Assembly (NCBI RefSeq): GCF_004959775.1
Contig: NZ_SJZG01000009.1
Coordinates: 62,001 to 126,000, forward strand
Reading direction: 5' to 3'
DNA length: 64,000 bases
Source of the DNA: Agromyces sp. H66
GTDB lineage: Bacteria; Actinomycetota; Actinomycetes; Actinomycetales; Microbacteriaceae
Shown here in pieces: positions 28,060 through 35,971 of this stretch; the stretch's first letter is position 1; each line of letters begins with the position of its first letter. Made by a program: the position numbers and the translations under genes. The notes under the pieces are model-generated. The model searched no databases and was not told the DNA's origin. It saw only the letters and a program-made list of their open reading frames with translations.

Positions 28060-29247
28060 ATGACCGCCACCACCCGCACCCGGGTCGCCATCATCGGGGC
28101 CGGCCCGGCCGGGCTCCTCCTCTCGCACCTGCTCGGGCAGGCCGGCATCGAGTCGATCGTCATCGACCAGCGCACGCGCGAGGAGATCGAGCACACGATC
28201 CGAGCCGGCATCCTCGAGCACGGCACCGCCGAGGTGCTCGCGGCCACCGGGGCATCCGATCGCGTGAAGACCGTCGGTCACCGGCATGACGGCATCGAGC
28301 TCCGCTTCGCCGGCGAGGGGCACCGCATCGACTTCGCCGCGCTGACCGGGCGCGGCGTCTGGCTCTATCCCCAGCACGAGGTGCTCATCGACCTCATCGC
28401 GGTGCGCCTCGCCGCCGGCCAGGACCTGCGGTTCGGCGTCACCGCCGTCGCCGTCGAGGGCGCCGACACCGATCGGCCGGTCGTGCACGCGACCACCGCC
28501 GACGGCGAGCCGCTCGTGATCGAGGCCGACTTCGTCGTCGGCGCCGACGGATCGCGCAGCGTCGCCCGCACCGCCGTGACCGGTTCCACCACTGGGGGTT
28601 ACTTCCGCGAGTATCCGTTCGCGTGGTTCGGGATCCTCTGCGAGGCGCCGCCCAGCGCCCCCGAGCTCATCTACAGCAACTCGCCCAACGGGTTCGCGCT
28701 CATCAGCCAGCGAAGCGCCACCGTGCAGCGCATGTACTTCCAGTGCGACCCGGAGATCGACCCCGAGTCGCTGAGCGAGCGCGAGATCTGGGACGACCTC
28801 CGGTCGCGCGTCGACGGACACGAACTGCTCGAGGGCCCGATCTTCCAGCGCGACGTGCTGCGCTTCCGCAGCTTCGTGGCCCACGAGCTGCGCCGCGGCC
28901 GCGTCGCGCTCGTCGGCGACGCGGCGCACACCGTGCCGCCCACGGGCGCCAAGGGCATGAACCTCGCCGTCGCCGACGTGCTCCTGCTCGACCGCGCACT
29001 GCGCGCGCTGCTGCTCGACGGCGACGAGCGTCCCCTCGACCGCTACGCCGAGACGGCGCTGCGCCGCATCTGGAAGGCGCAGCACTTCTCCTGGTGGATG
29101 ACGAGCATGCTGCACGTCGCGCCGGACGCCTCGGACTTCGACCGCCTGCGCCAGCTCGGCGAGCTCCGCTCGGTGGTCGAGTCGGAGGCGGGCCGTCGCT
29201 ACCTCGCCGAGGCGTACACGGGCTGGCCGTTCGAGACCGAACTCTGA
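28060..29247 (+). CDS. pobA: 4-hydroxybenzoate 3-monooxygenase
   Basis: 395-residue class A flavoprotein hydroxylase. FAD motif AIIGAGPAGLLLSHLLGQAG near residue 11, the PHBH-specific TIRAGILEHGT, FVVGADGSRS, and the second FAD motif VALVGDAAHTVPPTGAKGMN; WLYPQHEVLIDL is also diagnostic. It uses NAD(P)H and O2 to make protocatechuate from 4-hydroxybenzoate. AAGGAGA precedes the ATG at 28060. Its last 139 bp are duplicated, in decayed form, at 31200. Confidence 0.95.
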   Translation: MTATTRTRVAIIGAGPAGLLLSHLLGQAGIESIVIDQRTREEIEHTIRAGILEHGTAEVLAATGASDRVKTVGHRHDGIELRFAGEGHRIDFAALTGRGVWLYPQHEVLIDLIAVRLAAGQDLRFGVTAVAVEGADTDRPVVHATTADGEPLVIEADFVVGADGSRSVARTAVTGSTTGGYFREYPFAWFGILCEAPPSAPELIYSNSPNGFALISQRSATVQRMYFQCDPEIDPESLSEREIWDDLRSRVDGHELLEGPIFQRDVLRFRSFVAHELRRGRVALVGDAAHTVPPTGAKGMNLAVADVLLLDRALRALLLDGDERPLDRYAETALRRIWKAQHFSWWMTSMLHVAPDASDFDRLRQLGELRSVVESEAGRRYLAEAYTGWPFETEL

Positions 29248-29256
29248 GCCGGCCGC

Positions 29257-30309: not shown

Positions 30310-31170
30310 ATGACCCACCCCACTGATCACCCCGCCACCTGGTTCGTCACCGGCGCCTCGCGCGGCCTCGGCCTCGAGCTCGTCACGCAGCTGCTCGACC
30401 GTGGCGACAACGTCGCGGCCACCACGCGCTCCGTCGAACGCCTCACCACCTCACTCGACGGCACCGATACTGCGCGGCTGCTGCCCCTCCAGGTCGACCT
30501 CGCCGATGAGGCGCAGGTATCCGCGGCCGTCACCGCCACCATCGAGCGCTTCGGCGGCATCGACGTGGTGGTCAACAACGCCGGCTACGGGTTCCTCGCC
30601 GCTGTCGAGGAGGTCTCCGACGCCGAAGCGCGCGCCATGTTCGACGTGCAGGTCTTCGGTGTCTGGAACGTGCTGCGTTCGCTACTGCCGAGCTTCCGCG
30701 AGCGCCGCAGCGGCCACATCATCAACGTGTCCTCGATCGTGGGCCTGCTGCCCTTCCCGGGCTGGAGCCTCTACGGCGCCGGCAAGTTCGCGCTCGAGGC
30801 GCTCACCGAGTCACTCGCTGCAGAAGTGGCCGACCACGGCATCAGGGTCAACCTCGTCGAGCCCGGCTACATGCGCACCGACTTCCTGCGACCGGTGTCG
30901 CTGGGTCTCCCGACTTCGACCGTCGACGCCTACCCGGCCATCAGGGAGATGGTGGAGCAGCACCTGCGGATGCCCGGAACCCAGCCCGGCGACCCCGCGA
31001 AGGCCGCATCGGCGATCATCGCGGTCGCGACCACCGATGCGGCGCCGATGCACCAGCTGCTGGGATCGGATGCCCTCGCGCTCGCAGAGGCCCGCGTGCG
31101 CGCACTGACTGCCGACATCGAGGCCGCCCGGGCCTTGGCCGTGACCATCGACATCGCCGACGCGGCCTGA
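30310..31170 (+). CDS. Short-chain dehydrogenase/reductase
   Basis: 286 residues, classical SDR. Cofactor motif TGASRGLG at residues 14-21, NNAG, catalytic Ser (INVSSIVG) and YGAGK (Y-x3-K). The cofactor region carries Arg (TTRSVERL), suggesting NADP. Substrate unknown; the family often accepts short ketones or aldehydes. AAGGAG precedes the ATG. Divergent from the XRE/MmyB regulator; the 180-bp gap holds no clear palindrome. Confidence 0.9.
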   Translation: MTHPTDHPATWFVTGASRGLGLELVTQLLDRGDNVAATTRSVERLTTSLDGTDTARLLPLQVDLADEAQVSAAVTATIERFGGIDVVVNNAGYGFLAAVEEVSDAEARAMFDVQVFGVWNVLRSLLPSFRERRSGHIINVSSIVGLLPFPGWSLYGAGKFALEALTESLAAEVADHGIRVNLVEPGYMRTDFLRPVSLGLPTSTVDAYPAIREMVEQHLRMPGTQPGDPAKAASAIIAVATTDAAPMHQLLGSDALALAEARVRALTADIEAARALAVTIDIADAA

Positions 31171-31199
31171 GTGATCGAGCCGCACGGCCCGTGCCGAAA

Positions 31200-31337
31200 G
31201 CTGCACGTCGCGCCGGACGCCTCGGACTTCGACCGCCTGCGCCAGCTCGGCGAGCTGCGCTCCGTGGTCGAGTCGGAGGCGTCCGCCGCTACCTCGCCGA
31301 GGCGTACACGGGCTGCCCGTTCGAGACCGAGCTCTGA
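31200..31337 (+). pseudogene. Duplicated 3' fragment of pobA
   Basis: Positions 31200-31337 repeat the last 139 bp of pobA (29109-29247) with a handful of substitutions and one deleted base in GAGGCG-TCCGCCGC, which breaks the frame; even the stop codon is kept. The XRE and SDR genes lie between the two copies, so this is a scar of a recombination or insertion event at the end of pobA. Confidence 0.9.
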
Positions 31338-31347
31338 GGTCGCGGCG

Positions 31348-31620
31348 TCACACGACGACCGCCGCACGCTCCTGGGGCCGACGGCGGGCGGGACATCCTC
31401 GTCGCCTGTCTCGCCGGCCTCGCTCACGCCCCGCCCGCCGCTTCGCGCGCTTCTCCCACTGCGACAGCGCGACCGCGAGCAGCAGCGCCAGGCCGTAGAA
31501 GAGGTCGTCGACCCAGCGTGGCGAGCCCGCGAGCTGCAGCCCGTTGATGCCGACGGCGAGCACGTAGAGCGCGACCACCGTGCCGAACACATTGAAGCGT
31601 CCGAGTGCGGCGGCCGTGGG
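31348..31620 (-). pseudogene. C-terminal remnant of a sugar ABC permease (RbsC type)
   Basis: About 90 codons read GRFNVFGTVVALYVLAVGIN, then WVDDLFYGLALLLAVALSQW and a basic tail, the last two helices of a ribose/xylose-type BPD_transp_2 permease. The frame upstream of 31620 no longer resembles a permease and no start is convincing. Together with the pobA fragment it marks a region where an older locus was destroyed. Confidence 0.75.
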
Positions 31621-31694
31621 TCCGCGGCATCGGAACCTGAGAGAGCACCGTCGGCGGTCGTTCGAGATGCCTGCCGGTGCTGCGAGCGAGGGTC

Positions 31695-32330
31695 TCAGTA
31701 CTCCGTCCTGCGGTCGATGCCGAGGGTCGCCACGAGGTCTTCGTGGAGTTGGAACCAGACGCGATGGCAGGAGTCGATGTCGGTCCTGTCTACCCATCCG
31801 TTCTGGCCGACCTGCGCGCGGCGGAGTGCCGCGTCGAAGCGGGCGTCGCATCCGGCGAACCTCGTGAGCACGCCGGCCAGTCGCTCGATCAGTGGAGTGA
31901 GGGCGGCGCTGAGGGCGGCGAGTTCATCGAGGATACGGGCGTCCCAGGCGGGGTCGGTGTGGTCGTTGGGAGCGAGGCGGTCTTCGCTGGTGGGTTTGAC
32001 CTGCCAGTCGGTGCATGCTCGCACGAATCGTGCGTTGATCGGGAGGAAGTCGCGGTAGACCGCCACGATTGCGTCGCCGGGGTCGGCGCTTGAGCGCTCG
32101 TCGGCGAGCTGGCGCTCGTTCTCGATTCTGCCTTCCTCGGTGAGTGACCATCCTTCGAGGCCCGCGAACGAGTTGTATTGCACCCAGCCGTGTTGCTCCG
32201 CATCGTGCAGAATGTCGATCGTCTCCTCGTGACCGACCCCGGCACGCTCGGCGATCGCGGCGTTGTCTGCAAGGCCCAGGAGCCGCACCCCGTGCAGCAC
32301 CAGCAAGGACGGCGGTGAGGGCCGGGTCAT
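31695..32330 (-). CDS. Hypothetical protein, possible winged-helix N-terminus
   Basis: 211 residues. The first 90 resemble a winged helix (LLVLHGVRLLGLADNAAIAE, VGHEETIDILHDAEQHGWVQ, GWSLTEEGRIENERQLADER), and the rest is helical with Asp/Trp-rich segments (RACTDWQVKPT, DHTDPAWDARIL, DSCHRVWFQLHEDLVATLG). I do not recognise the family. It overlaps the small HTH gene upstream by 4 bp (same operon) and is divergent from the PPDK-type gene, so a regulator or partner of that protein is likely. Confidence 0.75.
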   Translation of the reverse strand: MTRPSPPSLLVLHGVRLLGLADNAAIAERAGVGHEETIDILHDAEQHGWVQYNSFAGLEGWSLTEEGRIENERQLADERSSADPGDAIVAVYRDFLPINARFVRACTDWQVKPTSEDRLAPNDHTDPAWDARILDELAALSAALTPLIERLAGVLTRFAGCDARFDAALRRAQVGQNGWVDRTDIDSCHRVWFQLHEDLVATLGIDRRTEY

Positions 32331-32722
32331 GCTCGGTCGCCCTGCCGGGTGGTGAGTCTGCTGAAGTGCTGGTGGCACGCCTGGGGAGAGCGGAAGCCCA
32401 TCGCCTCGGCGATCTGCGCCCACGTCAACCCCGCAGCTCGGGCCGTGAACAGCAACCCGGTCTCCACGCCCTCGACTTCGGCCCGCGCTGCCGGAAGGAG
32501 AGCGAGCGCGTGGAGCAGATCATCGGGAGAGAGGTGAGCGGAGCGCCAGAGCGCGAACTGCGTCAACTCCACGGCCGTGGGCGGTACCGGTTCAGGCCGC
32601 CACGGGCGAGCGCTCAGCCCATCGGCGCCAAGCGTGAGAAGCCGGTCCTGCGCGTCGCGTTCTCGGCGCGCCTGCGCGTGGTCCCTCTCGGCCGACAGGT
32701 CGAATTCGTGCTTGCGTTCCAT
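32327..32722 (-). CDS. Small HTH protein of the phosphohistidine cassette
   Basis: 131 residues, charged N-terminus (MERKHEFDLSAERDHAQARR) and a C-terminal HTH, GLTWAQIAEAMGFRSPQACH, followed by QHFSRLTTRQGD. The pattern T/W-x-x-I-A-x-x-x-G is typical of DNA-binding proteins that use a sigma-like or XRE helix pair. ATG at 32722 has GAGGA upstream; an in-frame ATG at 32746 lies inside the A/T-rich palindromes and is less likely. Probably binds the site at 32741-32760. Confidence 0.75.
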   Translation of the reverse strand: MERKHEFDLSAERDHAQARRERDAQDRLLTLGADGLSARPWRPEPVPPTAVELTQFALWRSAHLSPDDLLHALALLPAARAEVEGVETGLLFTARAAGLTWAQIAEAMGFRSPQACHQHFSRLTTRQGDRA

Positions 32723-32740
32723 GCATCCATCCTCGAGAAT

Positions 32741-32760
32741 CAACATATTGTTGTCAACAA
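32741..32760. promoter_or_regulatory. Overlapping palindromes in a divergent promoter
   Basis: CAACATATTGTTG (32741-32753) and TTGTTGTCAACAA (32748-32760) are both perfect palindromes sharing TTGTTG, an A/T-rich island in a G+C-rich region between the start codons at 32722 and 32768. Good candidate for autoregulation by the HTH protein. Confidence 0.65.
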
Positions 32761-32767
32761 AACGTTG

Positions 32768-33961
32768 ATGGTTGAGGTTGTGGTCACGACTCTACGGAAC
32801 GCGAAAGCGGACACCTGCGGCGGCAAGGCGGCGTCGCTGTCGACCATGCTGCGAGCGGGTCTGCCGGTGCCAGACGGTTTCGTCGTGCCATTTGCCGCCT
32901 ACCGCGCCGCTCGGAGTGACGCCGGCTTCTCGGTGCCCGAGGCGTTGCGGGAGGTGCTCGCGCGGCGCCTTGCCGAGCTGGGCGACCCTCCGGCAGCCGT
33001 GCGCTCATCGGCCGCGGACGAGGACACCGCCGGCGCGTCGGCGGCCGGCCAGTACGAGAGCGTGCTGGCCGTGCACGGCGCGCAAGCGGTCGCGGAGGCG
33101 ATCCGGGTCTGCTGGGCGTCGTCGTCCTCGGCACGCGCCACCGAATACTGGCACCACCGGAACAGCGGCGCCGTGGACGGCGATCGGGACATGGCCGTGC
33201 TCGTCCAACGGATGATCGACGCCGAAGTGTCCGGCGTGATGTTCACTCCAGCCCGGCCCGAGGACGGCATTCGGATCGAGGCATCGTGGGGCCTGGGGGT
33301 CAGCGTCGTCGGGGGCAGCGTCACCCCCGACACCTATGAGGTGGCAACAGACGCAACCATCCGGCGCACCATCGTGCGCAAGACGACACGCCTGGACCGC
33401 GATCGCCGCGGCGGCCTCACCGCCTCCGACGTGCCCGAGCTACAGCAGACACTCCCGACACTGGACGATGCGGCCGTCACGACCCTCACGGCTCTTGGAC
33501 GCAGGATCGCGGGGCTTCTCGGTCAGCCCCAGGACATCGAATGGGCGATCGCAGACGGACAGGCGTGGATTCTCCAGGCGAGGCCGATCACCGCGTCCCT
33601 CCCTTCGCTGCCGGCACAGACCACCCCGACGGAAGGCGCGTCTCTGGCCGGGTCGCCGGGAGCCCACGGCGTCGTCACCGGGATCGCCCGCGTCCTGCGC
33701 GGCCCATCCGACTTCGCCCGCGTCCAGCCCGGAGACATCGTGATCTGCCCCTACACCGACCCCGCATGGACGCCCTTGTTCCGCGTCGTCGCCGCTGTCG
33801 TCACGGAGACCGGCGGGGTGCTCTCACATGCGGCGATCGTGGCCCGTGAGCATGGCATCCCCGCCGTCCTCGGCGTGCCACAGGCCACCGCCCGGATCCA
33901 CGACGGCACCCGAATCACCGTCAACGGCACCGAGGGAACCGTCACCGCTGCACAGGACTGA
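32768..33961 (+). CDS. PPDK-type ATP-grasp plus phosphohistidine-domain protein without a third catalytic domain
   Basis: 397 residues. PPDK_N ATP-grasp from about residue 15 to 280: CGGKAASLSTMLRAGLPVPD, AVRSSAADEDTAGASAAGQY, VLVQRMIDAEVSGVMFTPAR, DIEWAIADGQAWILQARPIT. A PEP-utilizers mobile domain follows, its catalytic His near residue 354 in ETGGVLSHAAIVAREHGIPA. PPDK, PpsA and rifampin phosphotransferase all have a further domain that takes the phosphate from this His; it is absent here. It can be expected to use ATP to phosphorylate its own His; the final acceptor is unknown. ATG at 32768 is immediately after the palindromes. Confidence 0.87.
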   Translation: MVEVVVTTLRNAKADTCGGKAASLSTMLRAGLPVPDGFVVPFAAYRAARSDAGFSVPEALREVLARRLAELGDPPAAVRSSAADEDTAGASAAGQYESVLAVHGAQAVAEAIRVCWASSSSARATEYWHHRNSGAVDGDRDMAVLVQRMIDAEVSGVMFTPARPEDGIRIEASWGLGVSVVGGSVTPDTYEVATDATIRRTIVRKTTRLDRDRRGGLTASDVPELQQTLPTLDDAAVTTLTALGRRIAGLLGQPQDIEWAIADGQAWILQARPITASLPSLPAQTTPTEGASLAGSPGAHGVVTGIARVLRGPSDFARVQPGDIVICPYTDPAWTPLFRVVAAVVTETGGVLSHAAIVAREHGIPAVLGVPQATARIHDGTRITVNGTEGTVTAAQD

Positions 33962-34028
33962 CGCCGACCACGCATTCAACAGAAAGGAAACGGGGCGATG
34001 GCGTAAGGCGCCGAGCTCCTGACAACTC

Positions 34029-34628
34029 ATGGCGACACGACATCTCTACATCGCACGACATGGCGACGCCGACGCATTCGGCGAGCTCACCGACACCGGC
34101 CGCGAGCAGGCAAGACTCCTCGGCCAGCGCCTCGCCCACCTTCCCATCGACGCGGTATGGCACTCCCCGCTGCCGCGCGCCGCCGACACCGCACAGCAGG
34201 TGGTTGCCCAACTCCGGTCAGGAGCGTCTGTCGCTGAAGCTGCGGAGCTTGTCGACCATGTGCCGTATCTGCCGACGCCCGAGGAAACGCCCCGCGCCTG
34301 GGTGCGGTTCTTCGACGGCTACGACCTCGCAGAAGCCGCCGCCGGCAACCGGATCGCGCAGAGCCTGACCGCCCGGTTCGCCTCGCCACCCGAGCAGGCC
34401 GACGATGTGCACGAAGTGCTCATCACGCACACCTACCCGATCGCATGGCTCATCCGCGACGCCCTCGACGCGCCCCCGGCACGGTGGCTCGGCCTCAACA
34501 GCGCCAACACCGCGCTCACCGTCATCGAGTACCGTCCCGGCATTTCTGGCATCACCATGTTCAACGACATGAGCCACCTCCCCGCCGAACTCCGCTGGAC
34601 CGGATTCCCCAACGCCGCCCGGCCCTGA
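34029..34628 (+). CDS. Histidine phosphatase (SixA-like branch)
   Basis: 199 residues. RHG motif IARHGDADAFGEL with catalytic His 11, LTDTGREQARLLGQRL, WHSPLPRAADTAQQV and the second His in VLITHTYPIAWLI. RHGDA with an early Glu/Asp resembles the phosphohistidine phosphatase SixA more than phosphoglycerate mutase. Placed 67 bp after the ATP-grasp/phosphohistidine protein, it could reverse that protein's His phosphorylation. The ribosome binding site is weak; AAAGGAAAC at about 33981 lies too far upstream for this ATG. Confidence 0.85.
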   Translation: MATRHLYIARHGDADAFGELTDTGREQARLLGQRLAHLPIDAVWHSPLPRAADTAQQVVAQLRSGASVAEAAELVDHVPYLPTPEETPRAWVRFFDGYDLAEAAAGNRIAQSLTARFASPPEQADDVHEVLITHTYPIAWLIRDALDAPPARWLGLNSANTALTVIEYRPGISGITMFNDMSHLPAELRWTGFPNAARP

Positions 34629-34711
34629 CCCTCGATCGTCTGCGTTCCCGCGACAACGCCCAACTCGTCCCCACTGCTCGCAGGCCGATCGCCCAGGGGC
34701 CGAATTCACAC

Positions 34712-34798
34712 TGGTGCGCGAGGGGGGACTTGAACCCCCACACCCTTGCGAGTACTGGCACCTGAAGCCAGCGCGTCTGCCAATTCCGCCACTCGCGC
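34712..34798 (-). tRNA. tRNA-Leu (anticodon CAG)
   Basis: On the minus strand, GCGCGAG...CTCGCGC forms the acceptor stem. D-loop AATTGGCAGA, anticodon loop TTCAGGT with stem CTGGC/GCCAG, long variable arm and GGTTCAAGTCC T-loop are all present. The discriminator is A and the 3' CCA is encoded. Reads CUG. Neighbour of fhaA in many actinobacteria; here GH65 genes separate them. Confidence 0.95.
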
Positions 34799-34804
34799 AC
34801 GTGG

Positions 34805-34822
34805 GGCGCACCGAAGTGCGCC
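34805..34822. other. Small hairpin beside tRNA-Leu; rest of the 300-bp gap empty
   Basis: GGCGCAC-CGAA-GTGCGCC, 6 bp upstream of the tRNA on its strand. The remaining stretch to 35098 shows no gene, repeat or RNA that I can recognise; it must carry the promoters of the tRNA (leftward) and of the HAD-GH65 operon (rightward). Confidence 0.4.
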
Positions 34823-35098
34823 AACCAACCGAGGTTATCACCCCGACCCCGGGAATCGCCATTCGGCGGCGGCCGGCGCCGGCTCGCGACATCCACTGCT
34901 CCGGTTGCAGGGCGAATCACGCGACACGCGGTGTCCGCACGGCGCGTCGCGAGGTTCTTCCTTCGACTCGAAGAATGCAGGCCGAGCGACCCTTCGGGAT
35001 TGCTTCGAGTTCCGCTGCCACTTGCGCTCGCCCCGGCGCACGGGAATAGCATCGATCAGCGGGTCCGGTGCCCCGACCGACACGATGAGAGGACGACC

Positions 35099-35971
35099 GT
35101 GACCTCGCCCGACGCCTCCCCAGACATTCCCCCGGAATCCATGACTCCCCCTGCCTCGTCTTCCGACCCCCGCGACGTCGACCTCAGCGGCATCCGCGGC
35201 TACCTCTTCGACCTCGACGGCGTGCTCACGCCGACCGCCGTCGTGCACATGCACGCCTGGTCGCGCCTGTTCACGCCGTACCTCGAAGAGCACGGCGCCG
35301 CGCCGTACACCGACGCCGACTACTTCGCCCACATCGACGGCAAGCCCCGCTACGACGGGGTGCGCAGCCTGCTGGCCAGCCGCGGCATCGTCGTGCCCGA
35401 GGGCGAGGTGACGGATGCCCCGTCCGCCGACACCGTGCACGGACTCGGCAACCGCAAGAACGACGCCTTCAACGCCACGCTCGCCGAGGAGGGCGTCGAG
35501 GCCTACCCGGCGAGTGTCGCGTTCCTCGACGCCGTACAGGCGAGCGGATGCCACGTGGCCGTCGTCTCGAGCTCGAAGAACGCGCCCGCCGTGCTCGAGG
35601 CCGCCGGCCTCGCCGACCGGTTCGAGGTCGTCGTCGACGGGGCCGTGGCCGCGCGGGAGGGCCTGCCCGGCAAGCCCCAGCCCGACACATTCGAGCGCGC
35701 CGCCGAACTGCTGGGGCTGCCGACCACCGTGTGCGCGGTCGTCGAGGACGCCGAGTCCGGCGTGAAGGCGGGAGCCGCGGGCGAGTTCGGCATCGTGATC
35801 GGCGTCGACCGCGGCGTCGGGCGCCACACGCTCGCCGAACTCGGCGCCGACGTGATCGTCGACGAGCTCGATGAGCTCATTCCCGCGGTCGAGCGCGCCG
35901 CGGCAACCGCTTCGACGGGCTCAGCGACCGAGGCCGCATTCCCCAGCACGATCCGGGAGGAACCGGTATGA
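35099..35971 (+). CDS. Beta-phosphoglucomutase-type HAD hydrolase
   Basis: 290 residues. After a Pro/Ser-rich leader of 30 residues, YLFDLDGVLTPTAVVH has the nucleophile Asp 38 and acid/base Asp 40; VAVVSSSKNAPAVLEAAGL (motif II Ser), GKPQPDTFERAAELLG (Lys) and VVEDAESGVKAGAAG (motif IV) follow. The ATGA overlap with a GH65 phosphorylase gene indicates conversion of the released beta-glucose 1-phosphate to glucose 6-phosphate. GTG start at 35099 after GAGAGGA. A plain sugar phosphatase cannot be excluded. Confidence 0.87.
   Translation: MTSPDASPDIPPESMTPPASSSDPRDVDLSGIRGYLFDLDGVLTPTAVVHMHAWSRLFTPYLEEHGAAPYTDADYFAHIDGKPRYDGVRSLLASRGIVVPEGEVTDAPSADTVHGLGNRKNDAFNATLAEEGVEAYPASVAFLDAVQASGCHVAVVSSSKNAPAVLEAAGLADRFEVVVDGAVAAREGLPGKPQPDTFERAAELLGLPTTVCAVVEDAESGVKAGAAGEFGIVIGVDRGVGRHTLAELGADVIVDELDELIPAVERAAATASTGSATEAAFPSTIREEPV

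Follow-up and report, generated by a model that had tools for sequence, protein, structure and literature searches.

A four-gene actinobacterial cassette that may form a phosphohistidine relay around W211, a constant neighbour of swivel-histidine proteins

When a dikinase consists of an ATP-grasp domain and a swivel histidine (swivel-His) domain, with no substrate domain of its own, where does its phosphate go? This question is raised by a divergent four-gene cassette in the window (the entire 64,000-nucleotide stretch of Agromyces sp. H66 DNA that was analysed, contig NZ_SJZG01000009.1, positions 62,001–126,000), which encodes a two-domain dikinase of 397 amino acids (P0003, 32768..33961) and a branch 1 histidine phosphatase of 199 amino acids (34029..34628) on the plus strand and, on the minus strand, a 131-amino-acid helix-turn-helix (HTH) protein (32327..32722) and a 211-residue protein, hereafter W211 (31695..32330). 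An earlier note made from the letters of this DNA had described these genes with palindromes between them, and both elements and coordinates proved correct. We tentatively propose, as something just short of an even call, that the cassette is a self-contained phosphohistidine relay, in which the dikinase would pass phosphate to W211, the phosphatase would reset it and the HTH protein would regulate the set.

Co-occurrence of the four families and the partners of W211

Two collections of loci were compared. Within a class sample of 296 genomes, W211 matches were found in 55 genomes at 63 places including the window (62 others), and the sampled set comprises 60 of these loci, collected by tblastn without any motif and hence unbiased (G090:C175 and G085:C101 were left out). 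For the named set, 572 confirmed relatives were ranked by similarity to the window protein and the top 80 W211 loci taken; it is therefore biased toward window-type loci, and with many close kin its counts are not independent. The two sets overlap at two places (L037 = L090, L045 = L138). In the class sample, strong HTH matches (E < 1e-20) and strong dikinase matches (E < 1e-80, from a search at E 1e-40 in which no more than six candidates per genome were scored) numbered 11 each, fell in the same 11 genomes, window included, and all lay within 1 kb of W211, with weaker HTH matches (from 2.3e-13) located elsewhere. In the named set, whose genera include Occultella, Nonomuraea, Kocuria, Nocardiopsis, Kribbella, Rhodococcus, Corynebacterium and Streptomyces, all four families were present at 37 of the 80 loci; 14 lacked only the phosphatase (the contig ends first in L121, L127 and L132), six lacked only the HTH gene, three had W211 with only a dikinase or His domain, one had W211 with the HTH gene, and 19 had W211 alone. 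No fifth family specific to the cassette recurs, the other neighbours being broad (ABC transporters, short-chain dehydrogenases/reductases) or confined to few loci, and a search of the cassette itself turned up no gene for a third domain. The four-gene set is not a chance assembly, and the earlier note's expectations of joint conservation and of a missing third-domain gene were both borne out.

A swivel-His protein was found within 3 kb of W211 at 53 of the 60 sampled and 60 of the 80 named loci; given ~4 swivel-His loci in the 4.2 Mb of the host genome, we estimate chance adjacency to be near 1%. Partner classes were assigned by script within these 3 kb, or by tblastn and motifs for L161, L165, L167 and L176. 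Type A partners, the window's included, are two-domain proteins resembling rifampin phosphotransferase (RPH) and phosphoenolpyruvate (PEP) synthase, and all six checked ATP-site and His residues are kept in 64 of 70 rows, the script's RPH-like class including L128 (His-only by sequence) and three doubtful rows (L051, L174 and L179); the remaining six rows are L127 and L132, cut by contig ends, the broken L047, the misclassified L128 and the doubtful L174 and L179. Type B partners are PPDK-like two-domain proteins, with all six residues kept in 23 of 23 rows. Against NF004531, the model for short PPDKs of the VadK type (see below; cut-off 456), they scored 908.3 (L070), 492.8 (L052), 469.6 (L067) and 455.7 bits (L063). 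Type C partners are long PPDKs that include a PEP barrel (Pfam PEP-utilizers_C, 238–241 bits in the three scanned); all nine rows keep the catalytic His and have lost all five ATP-site residues of types A and B (lysine, arginines, glutamate and glutamine), one of these rows (L171) having no N-terminal part in frame. L161 and L176, judged type C by motifs, keep the barrel motifs and the His, and L176 retains a glutamate at one lost place. Full-length PPDK-like proteins with a ruined ATP site and conserved PEP-barrel motifs were seen beside W211 at L069, L073, L161, L166, L168, L169, L170, L172, L176 and L178; from their sequences, such proteins are possibly enzyme-I-like PEP-dependent kinases.

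Smaller partners occur as well. Type D comprises six His domains that stand alone by W211 and keep the His (L046, L124, L126, L128, L154 and L155), the script's His-only class also including L175, a 535-amino-acid protein 1.9 kb from W211. In the type F fusions (L173 and L177), a single frame has a His domain at its N-terminal end and W211 at its C-terminal end. In both fusions ~480 residues separate the two parts, and a 333-amino-acid piece of these in L173 has no Pfam match. At L063 the type B dikinase is fused to the phosphatase in an 827-amino-acid frame. Since donor modules vary or vanish and the swivel His and W211 persist, the architecture makes W211 most likely the receiving side. The earlier note had looked for an acceptor among the divergent gene products, a suggestion that holds for W211, the constant swivel-His neighbour with two invariant histidines, and not for the HTH protein, a probable autoregulator. 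Among 11 genomes with lone W211, P0003-like proteins were absent at 1e-10 in seven, and nine had an NF004531 match above the cut-off, all of them frames of 932–1285 amino acids resembling full-length PPDK; this cut-off is thus not VadK-specific, and passing it is weak evidence of that type. In the four searched genomes with His-only partners, NF004531 matches were found elsewhere (two with frames of 610–840 amino acids), so that an ATP-grasp could act in trans.

W211 itself has no Pfam family above its cut-off and no NCBIfam match. Its AlphaFold2 model (mean predicted local distance difference test score, pLDDT, 95.6) consists of a predicted MarR-like winged helix (residues 1–85; Z ~11–13 over ~73–84 residues to MarR-type proteins and AspA) and a four-helix bundle (87–203), which predicted alone gave a pLDDT of 94.8. 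No significant solved relative of the bundle was found, HPt-like folds included (best Foldseek E 3.1, best Z 10.1); a talin helical bundle was rejected as its fold because a Z of 10.1 is common among helical bundles, and the bundle may belong to some unlisted fold family. Two positions of W211, H189 (codon 31764–31766, minus strand) and H196 (31743–31745, minus strand), are histidine in all 58 sampled-set rows that reach them and in all 78 readable named-set rows, for which the collecting pattern contained W192, L195 and H196 and leaves H189 as the only free test. The sampled-set alignment has 59 rows (the frame of L048 is broken, as is L162, which has no row), with F95 conserved in 59, N99, W109 and R207 in 58 each, Q110 in 57 and H124 in 54, and a motif of the H-x-x-W-x-x-L-H type, with a few variants allowed, is encoded in some frame at 60/60 sampled loci. 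The winged helix is less constant than the bundle: 12 of the 63 places match only from residues 76–89 on, their N-terminal part being diverged, not absent, and at L163 (besides the broken L162) the frame leaves no room for it. The model suggests DNA binding by this winged helix, though it is the less conserved half.

Two further observations concern W211. A defence origin was considered and rejected, the winged-helix part giving one weak PADLOC match (MkoB, 22 bits). At L160 (6179–8278), a W211 domain follows an acyl-CoA-synthetase-like protein (AMP-binding) in a single frame, with swivel-His proteins some kb away.

Dikinase, phosphatase, probable regulator and operator

The dikinase is an RPH/PEP-synthase-type ATP-grasp followed by a swivel His domain (Pfam PPDK_N 3.5e-64, PEP-utilizers 6.7e-26), with the catalytic His at residue 360 (codon 33827–33829, plus strand, in a frame counted from 32750); the start regions of relatives suggest that translation may begin at a GTG at 32780 (393 amino acids). 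The Pfam scan found no third domain and no PEP-utilizers_C barrel, a feature of PEP synthase and PPDK. The nearest relatives of its two domains include PEP synthase, PigC and rifampin phosphotransferase, and the closest solved structures for both are 5fbs, which we take to be a rifampin phosphotransferase, and 5hv1, both deposited as PEP synthases. Residues 64–290 and 298–398 of the dikinase align to these structures with the entire middle domain skipped, the alignment to 5fbs leaping from chain residue 322 to 764 and leaving the rifampin-binding domain unmatched; in the available text of PMC12167813, 5FBT and 5HV1 are named as rifampin phosphotransferases. The window enzyme thus shares the catalytic motifs of RPH and is closest to it in the structure of both domains, and differs in lacking the large rifampin-binding domain that lies between ATP-grasp and His domain in RPH. 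It scored 284.9 bits against the NCBIfam model RIF_Ptrans_rph (cut-off 999) and 83.8 bits against NF004531 (cut-off 456), and was assigned to neither, although as judged from its sequence it has the two-domain layout and the kept His of VadK-type proteins. A phage origin was rejected as well: in PHROGs, a phage 'kinase' family is matched by the dikinase over its His domain at 54.7 bits, the other cassette proteins match only weakly, and one scan of viral contigs with the dikinase confirmed no relative.

The phosphatase starts 67 bp after the dikinase stop. It belongs to the branch 1 superfamily by sequence (His_Phos_1 2.2e-21, 76.9 bits against a cut-off of 21.7), and its R10, H11, G12 (the RHG residues 10–12) and H134 are kept in at least 90% of 15 rows. 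The label 'SixA-like' given in the earlier note had to be dropped, the NCBIfam SixA model (TIGR00249) giving 34.7 bits, below its cut-off of 74.5. Among solved structures PGAM5 comes closest, an enzyme that the available text of PMC7948535 counts as one of four phosphohistidine phosphatases for which in vivo targets have been proposed, so that a phosphohistidine substrate is possible. Phosphatase matches of at least 58% identity lie within ~2 kb of W211 in 15 of 17 cases, one being fused in frame with its dikinase, and away from it in two (G018 and G144), while more distant phosphatases (40–52%) occur elsewhere, also in W211-free genomes. The host has a second phosphatase of this family (G000:C31:233448–234029, 45% identity), and similar phosphatases occur in each of the other five same-genus genomes in the class sample, four of them without W211.

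The HTH protein, whose gene shares four overlapping bases with that of W211, has weak HTH-type Pfam matches, none above cut-off. Between the divergent genes lie the two overlapping palindromes of the earlier note (32740..32768, TCAAC-N5-GTTGTCAAC-N5-GTTGA in the window; consensus TCAAC-N5-GTTGTCAAY-N5-GTTGA), which are present as described and form a single operator, tied to the HTH gene and not to the 211-residue protein. Where the HTH gene is present (window included), 58 of 63 loci keep at least 18 of the 19 fixed operator bases and the other five keep 15–17, whereas without it none of 78 W211 loci exceeds 16 and 75 score 12–14, one place being double-counted in each group (L037 = L090, L045 = L138). 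The operator occurs once in the host genome, with no other place within three mismatches. As it tracks the HTH gene and not W211, the 131-amino-acid protein is probably a dedicated local autoregulator and putative binder of this operator, and not the acceptor; W211 is disfavoured as the binder, the operator being missing where W211 lacks the HTH gene. Rfam returned nothing but a tRNA within 31000–35200, and thus no RNA element in the intergenic region, and a simple scan of 31600–34720 gave no sigma-70-like promoter or terminator.

Genomic setting of the cassette

The right boundary is a tRNA-Leu(CAG) gene (34712..34798, minus strand), at about which same-genus homology begins among the listed matches. 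In 40 other same-genus genomes homology spans the tRNA-Leu and the genes to its right, and among the matches listed none begins left of query base 59 (window 34698), so that the cassette side is apparently not shared. Of the other five same-genus genomes in the class sample, one (G289) has W211, and there the order is HTH–W211–phosphatase–dikinase in one direction, with the operator directly before the HTH gene. Third-position G+C is 0.80–0.84 in the four cassette genes vs. 0.89–0.95 in five neighbours, and horizontal transfer probably brought the cassette to its place next to the tRNA gene; the tRNA-end pattern occurs just once in the window, i.e., no tRNA-derived att repeat was found there. 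To the left of the cassette, in a debris stretch before W211, sits a duplicate of the ~138-nt 3′ end of a gene for a flavin adenine dinucleotide (FAD)-dependent monooxygenase (29109–29248 and 31200–31338, 95–98% identical). An 80-amino-acid frame at 31348–31590 (minus strand) resembles, on inspection by eye, the end of an ABC-type permease and has no Pfam match.

The proposed relay and its competitors

At four loci of one genus (L061, L065, L066 and L070) a W211 gene comes after a type B dikinase, and the gene order at L065 fits what we take to be zwf1-gnd2-bpoB-ephC-Rv1125-Rv1126c-Rv1127c. The active-site motif spelled by the primers of the VadK (Rv1127c) paper is exact in three of these loci and one residue off in L066, and because of the gene order and active-site motif of the mycobacterial loci we take Rv1126c to be a W211 protein. 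According to the available text of that paper (PMC13400623, 2026), VadK is a Mycobacterium tuberculosis PPDK without the pyruvate domain. Given ATP and Mg it autophosphorylates on His422; growth on propionate depends on VadK and on this His, and VadK pulls down methylcitrate synthase and dehydratase. Co-expression of Rv1126c, its operon partner, improved VadK solubility, and a 2 M NaCl wash served to separate both. In the same text, no discussion of Rv1126c as an acceptor and no match to 'phosphatase' were found. VadK and the window enzyme are alike in their ATP-grasp and swivel His, the missing pyruvate domain and, presumably, the adjacent W211-type gene, whereas VadK is PPDK-derived and the window enzyme is RPH/PEP-synthase-like and fails NF004531. 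The cassette belongs, as a variant, to the VadK kind described so recently; it has an enzyme of another lineage plus a phosphatase and a probable autoregulator, and what is new and open to testing is the constant W211 partner.

In the relay that we propose, the ATP-grasp would phosphorylate the swivel His of the same dikinase, as in rifampin phosphotransferase and PEP synthase, a loading step that is supported by the biochemistry of the VadK relative and by the kept residues. As the dikinase has no substrate domain of its own, its swivel domain is proposed to dock on W211, whose bundle would receive the phosphate, most likely on H189 or H196; the phosphatase would strip it off and reset the switch, and the HTH protein would bind the single operator and set cassette expression. 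A likeness exists to enzyme I–HPr of the phosphotransferase system (PTS) and to NPr/SixA, where a swivel-type His domain passes phosphate on to a partner protein and a histidine phosphatase can reverse the transfer (available text of PMC7948535). Those partners of W211 that combine a PEP barrel with a ruined ATP site are enzyme I-like in logic, while the window system differs from the PTS in using ATP as donor and in a phosphatase that is not SixA. W211, with its predicted helical bundle and winged helix, is also unlike HPr.

Several results weigh against this relay. A swivel-His neighbour within 3 kb is missing at 20 of the 80 named loci and at 7 of the 60 sampled ones, where W211 keeps its histidines, and no phosphatase was seen at 17 of the 60 partner-bearing named loci (the contig ends first in L121, L127 and L132), so that the phosphatase is not obligatory. 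The bundle matched no solved HPt-like fold (Foldseek E 3.1 and Z 10.1 at best), and the conservation of H196 in the named set was built in by the search pattern. In the available text of PMC13400623, metabolic enzymes and not Rv1126c are proposed as partners of VadK, and the vadK mutant had no change in methylcitrate-cycle gene expression; in the literature as far as it was available, no report of phosphate transfer to any W211-type protein was found. Moreover, the near-invariant F95, N99, W109, Q110, N122, H124, D126 and D130 look more like a binding pocket than the surroundings of a bare phosphotransfer His.

Such a pocket, into which the many near-invariant polar residues would fit, would suit a split small-molecule dikinase, in which the W211 bundle would present a small molecule to the swivel His, like HpeH/PpsA and the rifampin-binding domain, and the phosphatase would reverse or complete the pathway. 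PEP synthase, PigC and rifampin phosphotransferase, which are among the closest relatives of the two dikinase domains, do act on small molecules, and two-component small-molecule dikinases exist in HpeHI, which like CreHI and PpsAB distributes RPH-type modules over separate proteins (available text of PMC12167813). In those systems, however, a lone ATP-grasp meets a His domain fused to the substrate domain, whereas the cassette has ATP-grasp and His domain fused and a small helical protein separate, which is not the HpeHI arrangement. The bundle, moreover, has ~125 residues and did not resemble the large substrate domains, no family of catabolism or biosynthesis recurs specifically by the cassette, and a winged helix would be unusual in a substrate-binding subunit; we regard this explanation as unlikely, albeit with a real share of the probability. 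A little less probable again is regulation after the model of VadK, in which the self-phosphorylated dikinase would bind and tune metabolic enzymes and W211 would be a stabilising or regulatory subunit and no acceptor: the autophosphorylation, methylcitrate enzyme pull-down, His422 requirement and Rv1126c solubility effect reported for this type B relative (available text of PMC13400623) favour it, but the window enzyme is not VadK-type (83.8 bits vs. 456), and the invariant W211 histidines and the presence of W211 beside His-only proteins would be left unexplained. Chance or hitch-hiking of four unrelated genes on a mobile segment, in line with the patchy distribution, the tRNA-Leu adjacency and the lower third-position G+C, is highly improbable, being already contradicted by the named-locus counts and the class-sample co-occurrence, with the same families together across many genera, a common operator, fusions and no set-specific fifth family.

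Beyond the relay in this cassette, a wider claim can be made, which we consider possible while leaning against it: that W211 stands for a new family of phosphohistidine receivers, with no relation to HPr, HPt or response regulators, and with interchangeable donors (two separate ATP-grasp lineages, or PEP via ATP-dead PPDKs acting like enzyme I), histidine phosphatases that reset it, and VadK–Rv1126c as its M. tuberculosis member. If this is true, actinobacteria would have a phosphorelay that belongs neither to the two-component systems nor to the PTS. VadK shows that a dikinase can serve as a regulatory histidine kinase even when its target domain is gone; the comparison made here points to one constant partner family, W211, over differently sourced enzymes and names two candidate histidines. 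The cassette, present in actinomycetes that include Occultella and Nonomuraea, offers a compact four-gene system, complete with a phosphatase and an operator, for addressing the question of the acceptor in vitro.

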